40,547 bases of DNA from positions 1-40,547 of the forward strand of contig CALRDL010000006.1 in the NCBI GenBank assembly GCA_943354905.1, written 5' to 3'. Every line of letters starts with the position of its first letter. The first letter of the stretch is position 1. This document shows, in pieces, positions 9,048 through 31,650 of this stretch. Origin of the DNA: Candidatus Nomurabacteria bacterium (GTDB lineage Bacteria; Patescibacteriota; Minisyncoccia; Phycocordibacterales; UBA9973). The notes beneath the pieces are model-generated. The model saw only the letters and a program-made list of their open reading frames with translations, was not told the origin of the DNA and made no database searches. Made by a program: the position numbers and the translations under genes.

Positions 9048-9350
9048 AGAATTCGAAATCTCACCGAAAAGATACAGTTAAGGAAAATGGAAATCCTAAT
9101 CCCCAAAATATTTGTTTCCATTTTCCGAGTCCATTTGAATTAAAACATTAGTCGAGCGTAGTAGAAAAATTAGAAGAAAAATAGTCGTAGAGCGTAAGAT
9201 TAGCTTTCTTGCTTTTCAAAAAAAGTTCGCGTAAAGGACATTAATACATCACAAAACTTTGTGACTACAAATAATTTTTCGTCGCCACTCAAAATTTTCG
9301 CAGTCCGCCCCTCGTGGTTTTACAAGCTTGCAAAACATCACTGCGGTCGT

Positions 9351-9398
9351 CACCAAACATAAAAAGACTGGAGCAGTCCAGTTTTTTTATGTTTGGTG
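9351..9398. terminator. 22-bp near-perfect inverted repeat / bidirectional intrinsic terminator overlapping the 3' end of tRNA-Glu
   Basis: CACCAAACATAAAAAGACTGGA-GCAG-TCCAGTTTTTTTATGTTTGGTG, one mismatch, A/T tracts on both sides. Confidence 0.75.
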
Positions 9399-16024: not shown

Positions 16025-16047
16025 ACCCCGAAGAAAGTCTTCGGGGT
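16025..16047. repeat. REP-like hairpin, copy 1: ACCCCGAAGA-AAG-TCTTCGGGGT
   Basis: Perfect 10-bp stem between lysS and the pilin gene. Confidence 0.9.
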
Positions 16048-16685: not shown

Positions 16686-16707
16686 CCCCTAAGACTGTCT
16701 TCGGGGT
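16686..16707. repeat. REP-like hairpin, copy 2 (one stem mismatch): CCCCTAAGA-CTG-TCTTCGGGGT, abutting the RAYT -10
   Basis: Same right arm as copy 1; next to TACAAT (16707-16712). Confidence 0.85.
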
Positions 16708-16718
16708 ACAATATAAGT

Positions 16719-17444
16719 ATGGGATTAAGAAAAATACCAATTTTAAATGGTGAGTTCTATCATATATATAATCGTGGTAACAGTCGTCAGAAAATATTCT
16801 TTGACGAAGAAGATTATCAGCATTTCATAAAATTACTTTTTATTTGTAATTCTATAAAACAGGTGAGTTTTCGTGATGATATTATTGAAAAAAAAATTGA
16901 CGCGTGGGATTTTGATAGAGGAGAAACTATAGTCTCGATAGGTGCGTGGGTGTTGATGCCAAATCATTTTCATATTTTCATGACTTCTAATAAATCCCCC
17001 GAAGAAAGTCTTCGGGGTGAATCAAATATTACTATTTTTATGCGTAAGTTTTGTACAGCTTATTCAAAATATGTAAATACTAAATATAAACGCACAGGAT
17101 CACTTTTTGAAGGTAAATTTCAGGCGGTTCATGTAGTGAGTGATGCTCAAGCAAAGTATCTTTTTGCGTATGTTCATTTAAATCCTGTGAAATTGTTGCA
17201 AAAAGATTGGAAAGAAAATGGTATAAGTAATAAAAAAAGAGCTCTATTGTTTTTGGAAAAATATAAATGGAGTAGTTATCTTGATCACTTGTCTCTAGCT
17301 AGGTTAGAAAGTCGATTATTAGATCGAGAGAATTTTATAAGTTGCTCGACTAATGAAAAGGATTTTAAAAAAGAAATTTTTGAATGGTTTGAACTCTACC
17401 CCGAAGAAAGTCTTCGGGGTAATTTCGATTTAAAAAAGTACTAA
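16719..17444 (+). CDS. REP-associated tyrosine transposase (RAYT / IS200-like Y1 transposase)
   Basis: FYHIYNRGNSRQKIFFDEEDYQHF, MPNHFHIFM (HUH), FAYVHLNPVKLLQKDW. Confidence 0.93.
   Translation: MGLRKIPILNGEFYHIYNRGNSRQKIFFDEEDYQHFIKLLFICNSIKQVSFRDDIIEKKIDAWDFDRGETIVSIGAWVLMPNHFHIFMTSNKSPEESLRGESNITIFMRKFCTAYSKYVNTKYKRTGSLFEGKFQAVHVVSDAQAKYLFAYVHLNPVKLLQKDWKENGISNKKRALLFLEKYKWSSYLDHLSLARLESRLLDRENFISCSTNEKDFKKEIFEWFELYPEESLRGNFDLKKY
16997..17018. repeat. REP-like hairpin, copy 3, inside the RAYT ORF: CCCCGAAGA-AAG-TCTTCGGGGT
   Basis: Identical core to copy 1; reads PEESLRG in frame. Confidence 0.92.
17398..17420. repeat. REP-like hairpin, copy 4, near the 3' end of the RAYT ORF: ACCCCGAAGA-AAG-TCTTCGGGGT
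   Basis: Identical to copy 1; reads PEESLRG in frame. Confidence 0.92.
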
Positions 17445-25620: not shown

Positions 25621-25773
25621 ATTTTAGCATTTTAAATTTAGAAAAAGAAATCACCCACAAGTCCGACTTGTGGCTGGGGAAAAAATTCCTGCATAACGAA
25701 AGAGTCACCTTGTCCAGTCTTTTAATTTTTCAATTTCTACTATCTCGAACAGCTGTCGATTATCGTAGAAAAG

Positions 25774-31618: not shown

Positions 31619-31622
31619 ATAT

Positions 31623-31650
31623 ATCCCAACATTCGTACGAATGTTGGGAT
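31623..31650. repeat. Perfect 28-bp palindrome ATCCCAACATTCGTACGAATGTTGGGAT
   Basis: Read directly; 8 nt before the winged-helix start codon. Confidence 0.9.

Follow-up and report, generated by a model that had tools for sequence, protein, structure and literature searches.

We describe a clade of REP-associated tyrosine transposases (RAYTs), from one genus of Nomurabacteria-type Patescibacteria, in which alignment and phylogeny show that one REP hairpin has become fixed within the reading frame of the RAYT. Comparison within each gene further shows that this internal hairpin and the two hairpins flanking the gene have changed together through about 17 changes of stem sequence. At slightly less than even probability, we read the system as a REPtron (a RAYT with its cognate REP hairpins) whose RAYT would rewrite REP sites, its own gene included.

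The window, meaning the whole stretch of DNA analysed, is 40,547 nucleotides long and is contig 6 of a source genome (G000) of 750,840 bases in 31 contigs. All genomes used are draft assemblies, and those that are named derive largely from metagenomes; the results are read from sequence alone.

The window RAYT and its hairpins

The window gene is identified as a RAYT, as a preliminary description had proposed, by its HUH motif (H83-F84-H85) and by profile matches. Of the 11 proteins in the family alignment, 10 match Pfam Y1_Tnp (best 2.9e-10), and NCBIfam NF047646 matches the window RAYT itself with E=1.6e-10, under the curated cut-off of 80 bits. H83, H85, Y147 and Y151 are invariant in the family alignment, and either of the two tyrosines is a candidate for the catalytic residue. 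A sequence search of solved structures found no credible relative, and an AlphaFold2 model from two sequences reached a pLDDT of 36, too poor for use. The gene has a neighbour with a prepilin methylation motif on one side and mraZ-rsmH on the other; lysS, assigned by its tRNA-synt_2 match, lies upstream.

Four hairpins of the form CCCCGAAGA-NNN-TCTTCGGGG lie inside 1.4 kb. None is expected from 100 shuffles, which rules out chance palindromes as their origin. The preliminary description had noted all four, giving the exact starts of copies 2 and 3; copies 1 and 4 begin one base later than it placed them, and copy 2 is imperfect. The features are:

16026..16046, + strand: copy 1, solitary REP hairpin between lysS and a pilin-like gene (pattern search)
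16686..16706, + strand: copy 2, 5′-flanking REP hairpin with one mismatch (pattern search, folding)
16707..16712, + strand: -10-like box TACAAT, directly after copy 2 and 12 nt before the ATG (sequence)
16719..17444, + strand: RAYT ORF, Y1/HUH, 241 aa (HUH motif, NF047646 and Y1_Tnp profile matches)
16997..17017, + strand: copy 3, internal REP hairpin, in frame, encoding PEESLRG within the turn that joins the HUH strand to the helix after it (alignment, covariation)
17399..17419, + strand: copy 4, 3′-flanking REP hairpin within the extended C-terminus, encoding PEESLRG (alignment with relatives)

Copies 1, 3 and 4 share one sequence (CCCCGAAGAAAGTCTTCGGGG). Copy 2, with a single stem mismatch and a different loop (CCCCTAAGACTGTCTTCGGGG), is therefore the weaker hairpin: folded as DNA it reaches -5.1 kcal/mol, the other three -10 to -11.4. 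Folding z-scores of the four range from -2.5 to -4.2. Copy 1 starts about 12 nt past the lysS stop codon. Intrinsic terminators were rejected as an explanation, since a T-rich tail accompanies some copies only and the many genes with in-frame copies speak against it; the hairpins have no Rfam match to a known RNA family. Other strong hairpins (stems of 12-20 bp) occur at 182-211, 9350-9398 and 31622-31650 of the window, have no known RAYT partner and could be terminators or further REPs.

Copies 3 and 4 share one frame of the RAYT ORF and both code for PEESLRG, as first described, and the two differ in standing. Copy 4 sits 45 nt ahead of the RAYT stop codon. In the nearest relative (L077, of genome G042) the ORF is shorter and the hairpin lies 18 nt past the stop. 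Because relatives hold this REP at or near the stop codon, the comparison identifies copy 4 as an ordinary 3′-flanking REP that a longer reading frame has taken in. The proposal that REPs serve as coding sequence of their own transposase gene thus holds, as a conserved feature, for copy 3 alone.

Hairpin copies in the genome and beyond

A search allowing three mismatches found nine copies of the window hairpin type in G000 and none of a reversed-pattern control, so the worry that the hairpin might be absent elsewhere in the genome falls away. Five copies lie outside the window: one is intergenic and four are in frame within genes, namely those for AtpG (ATP synthase gamma subunit), RecR, an M1 aminopeptidase and a SAM methyltransferase. 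Two related REP types (CCACANGT types) have 20 copies in G000, and such elements are also found in frame within several other genes. Ten RAYT matches were found in G000, including a few partial or distant ones; most have their own hairpin type near the gene. The C12 RAYT is a relative of another REP type (CCACATGT). A second REP type in the window, CACCCACAAGT[CCG]ACTTGTGGCTG at 25651-25676, lies between two genes and matches the contig 7 RAYT of the same genome. No GTAG or GTGG tetranucleotide was seen at the 5′ foot of the nine G000 copies inspected.

The exact hairpin was sought in 85,462 genomes, yielding 45 stretches, mostly single matches in unrelated taxa. These scattered matches are probably terminators or chance. 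Several copies together occur in a single stretch, from a Patescibacterium; matches also came from two Nomurabacteria genomes. Rarity in other organisms contradicts a wide spread of the exact hairpin. The element is also present in Candidatus Nomurabacteria and Patescibacteria MAGs matching the same-genus genomes. One genome (G014; L020, L024) has two in-gene REPs of the window's type but, at a threshold of E<=1e-25, lacks any such RAYT, making them orphan REPs. Inverted REP pairs (REPIN-like) occur in the relatives G051, G004 and G006 and, within G000, among the related types (C14, C24); the window's own four copies include no inverted close pair.

Two classes of RAYT in the genus

We compared the segment following the HUH motif (MPNHFHI) in 78 RAYTs from the genus. 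In 43 it is an 8-residue turn with no hairpin. In the other 35 the turn has 13-28 residues, encoded by a hairpin in 33 of them: a hairpin of at least 7 bp (score >=7) is present in 31 of the 35 long turns, against none of the 43 short ones, and two further cases have one mismatch. Equal windows elsewhere in the same ORFs contain a hairpin in 16 of 1277 draws (1.3%). The 35 long-turn RAYTs form one clade (support 100/98, present in 100% of bootstrap trees) in a maximum-likelihood tree from which insert columns and the C-terminal end were excluded. By alignment, copy 3 is the conserved in-ORF element of this clade and copy 4 is not.

That PEESLRG might be an insertion is borne out, since the in-ORF hairpin is inserted relative to other RAYTs; those lacking the palindrome lack the segment altogether, and so do not conserve the peptide. 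Within the clade the peptides at the insert are unrelated (PEESLRG, SHMSDMW, HKSDLW, EARLP, PKSNLGE), and the alignment rules out a conserved peptide motif. The comparison indicates that the DNA palindrome persists while the peptide drifts, PEESLRG being incidental. In real internal hairpins the centre of the loop is in codon phase 0 or phase 2 and in no case phase 1; the lone phase-1 case comes from a decayed copy whose hairpin is spurious. Two related RAYTs (L089 and L111) share one more cognate hairpin inside the ORF, at aa 163 (nt 486-488).

Despite intact ORFs, the internal hairpin is decayed or absent in 2 of the 35 long-turn RAYTs of the genus and in 7 of 16 outside it. The latter belong to the same order, where the hairpin was found in the other nine long-turn RAYTs and in none with a short turn. 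An even sample of the phylum showed close relatives to be nearly confined to this order.

Promoter hairpin

Most RAYTs of both classes have a hairpin at most 70 nt upstream. In 69 of the 78 the ATG is preceded, at 10-15 nt, by a -10-like box (TATAAT-like), against 9% at random positions, and Shine-Dalgarno-like sites were seen in two of the 78. The pattern suggests that the RAYT mRNA is probably leaderless, with the REP just upstream of the -10 box. The spacing between hairpin and box varies among RAYTs. The promoter is assigned from the conserved -10 box, because a sigma-70 scan at the window RAYT found no -35 element and no full promoter. Copy 2 does abut TACAAT, as had been observed; across the 78 genes, a hairpin beside the -10 box is a general RAYT feature of the genus, present with or without an internal hairpin.

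Concerted change of internal and flanking stems

The internal stems are of 17 distinct kinds (inner seven pairs), which map to 17 changes on the tree. Compared with the flanks of its own gene, the internal stem is identical to the upstream one in 23 of 24 cases and to the downstream one in 22 of 25. Over eight bases, internal and flanking stems differ by 0.25 mismatches when cognate (n=16) and by 3.75 when non-cognate (permutation p<5e-5, a value inflated by relatedness, of which the count of changes on the tree is independent). The upstream and downstream stems likewise differ by 0.34 of 8 when cognate and 4.69 when non-cognate (n=35).

Among 29 distinct internal hairpins, aligned, compensatory changes are seen at eight of nine stem pairs. 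Their positions are 95% paired (63% shuffled), and covariation is 0.81, compared with 0.17 in shuffles and at most 0.20 with partners slid. The loops change orientation between near relatives, with AAG in L083 and CTT in L078, and again with AAG in L080, L082 and L085 and CTT in L089 and L111.

REPs inside host genes

AtpG, RecR and aminopeptidase orthologues were compared across the genus. Several REP types and REPIN-like dimers occupy variable turns, in frame. At one aminopeptidase site the same REP type has different loops: AAG/CTT (G000's own), CGG (G014) and a decayed CCG (G032). This REP changes the net length by 0-1 residue relative to most REP-free orthologues; in L267, L281 and L273 it replaces 7-8 residues, which looks less like clean insertion than like overwriting. 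At the AtpG site a monomer is present in G000, and dimers are present in G055 and, in decayed form, in G032. In-frame inverted hairpin pairs were also seen in glycerate kinase-like, RsmI-like and AtpG genes (L022, L026, L029 and L031 of G051; L190 of G055). CCACA-type REPs are in frame in a helicase-like gene after GDFFQLPPIV (L162 and L163 of G000, L160 of G076); the place, apparently shared by all three loci although one belongs to another species, is possibly an insertion hot spot.

Since in-frame REPs occur in unrelated housekeeping genes, coding by REPs does not set the transposase apart; its distinctions are the fixed place of the REP and the concerted change with the flanks. Intragenic REPs are already known (PMC3733652), and the host-gene part is an extension rather than a discovery.

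How the hairpins stay matched

The TnpA-REP transposase binds and cuts single-stranded REP DNA, its DNA-binding helix and other parts making contacts, according to the structural account in PMC8266576. If our RAYTs likewise recognise their cognate hairpins as folded single strands, cutting and rejoining could rewrite REP sites with the currently preferred REP sequence. Rewriting would reach the RAYT gene itself and housekeeping genes, and the internal copy would follow whatever specificity the RAYT acquires. The proteins could tolerate this, as the sites fall in loops or turns and the stems of the REPs can be translated in frame without meeting a stop codon. We prefer rewriting, to which we give not quite an even chance, over autoregulatory selection because of the loop flips in near relatives and because host-gene copies appear to follow the REP type of their genome. 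Both observations are suggestive, not decisive: repeated insertion at one site could mimic them, and a comparable pattern would arise if REPs had inserted independently and repeatedly at these sites, or if selection acted on nothing but the stem. Against rewriting, the sequence in common amounts to just 21-25 bp or so, leaving no long conversion tract to mark an event; the GT[AG]G tag of classical RAYT substrates was not seen beside the G000 copies inspected; and internal hairpins have decayed or vanished from some intact ORFs, both within and outside the genus.

A possible but less probable course is autoregulation, in which the RAYT binds the hairpin by its own -10 box, and the hairpin in the coding strand or mRNA, lowering its own expression, so that selection for binding keeps the three copies in step. 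A protein bound to the upstream hairpin would occupy the promoter in most RAYTs, the stems match within a gene, and the internal copy is kept in nearly the whole clade. Yet the other RAYT class has the promoter hairpin without an internal one, some RAYTs have lost the internal hairpin from an intact ORF, the distance from hairpin to -10 box is variable, and the apparent tracking of REP type extends to housekeeping genes, where autoregulation cannot be the cause. Far less probable is a role for the encoded peptide, by which it would help to recognise the hairpin that encodes it, enzyme and site changing specificity together. Alignment and a low-confidence predicted secondary structure place the insert between the HUH strand and the following helix. 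From the order of elements, this helix may correspond to helix alpha3 of TnpA-REP, which contacts the REP in the structure described (PMC8266576). However, one stem (GCCAAAGC) is read in two phases (0 in L083, 2 in L088) and gives different peptides, and RAYTs without the insert have cognate REPs too. Least probable of all, by a small margin, is a passive relic, that is, one ancient in-frame insertion inherited as coding sequence whose likeness to the flanks reflects shared ancestry only. The single origin on the tree agrees with it, but a relic would decay rather than follow its flanks, and the 17 stems carry compensatory changes and nearly all equal those of their own flanks.

The rewriting account can be carried further, to a version that we consider doubtful. 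The transposase would hold its own substrate as coding sequence, continually rewritten, and a change of specificity would be copied into its own frame and into host proteins as hairpin-encoded peptides. The turn beside the DNA-binding helix would then be written by the DNA that is recognised.

Comparison with known systems

The system shares with the REPtrons described in PMC2817692, PMC6006769 and PMC8266576 an HUH-Y1 transposase, one REP type per RAYT, flanking and scattered REPs, RAYT-REP coevolution and inverted pairs (REPINs). The accounts cited describe flanking REPs only, whereas here a cognate REP stands in the reading frame at a fixed place. Our search of the open-access literature found no report of a REP within a RAYT reading frame, which does not prove absence. 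Compared with classical REPs, those of G000 are few (nine, plus the 20 of the two related types) and often inside genes. They were also not seen to carry the GT[AG]G tag where inspected. RAYT subclasses without it are among those reported in PMC6006769.

Intragenic GTAG/CGTC REPs and the Rickettsia palindromic elements are likewise short palindromes or dimers in frame in functional genes (PMC3733652). The likeness to the latter consists in the in-frame palindromes of AtpG, RecR, the M1 aminopeptidase and the methyltransferase, and we claim no membership. The account in PMC3733652 gives no known transposase for these elements, whereas here resident RAYTs carry the same hairpins, and it does not report REPs in a RAYT itself or in concert with its flanks. 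Inverted repeats are also coding in Nematomorpha mitochondrial genes (PMC6649704); unlike ours, these are long perfect repeats in animal mitochondria, and that account, so far as cited here, mentions no transposase-REP pair.

The finding bears on the spread of REPs and on what keeps them matched to their RAYTs. An in-frame REP that tracks its flanks through about 17 changes is a natural record that separates REP copying from simple inheritance, and it offers a direct test of self-action against autoregulation. For in-gene palindromes with no known enzyme, those of Rickettsia among them, it also suggests what kind of enzyme to seek. The finding shows, too, that very small bacterial genomes tolerate such elements within their housekeeping genes.
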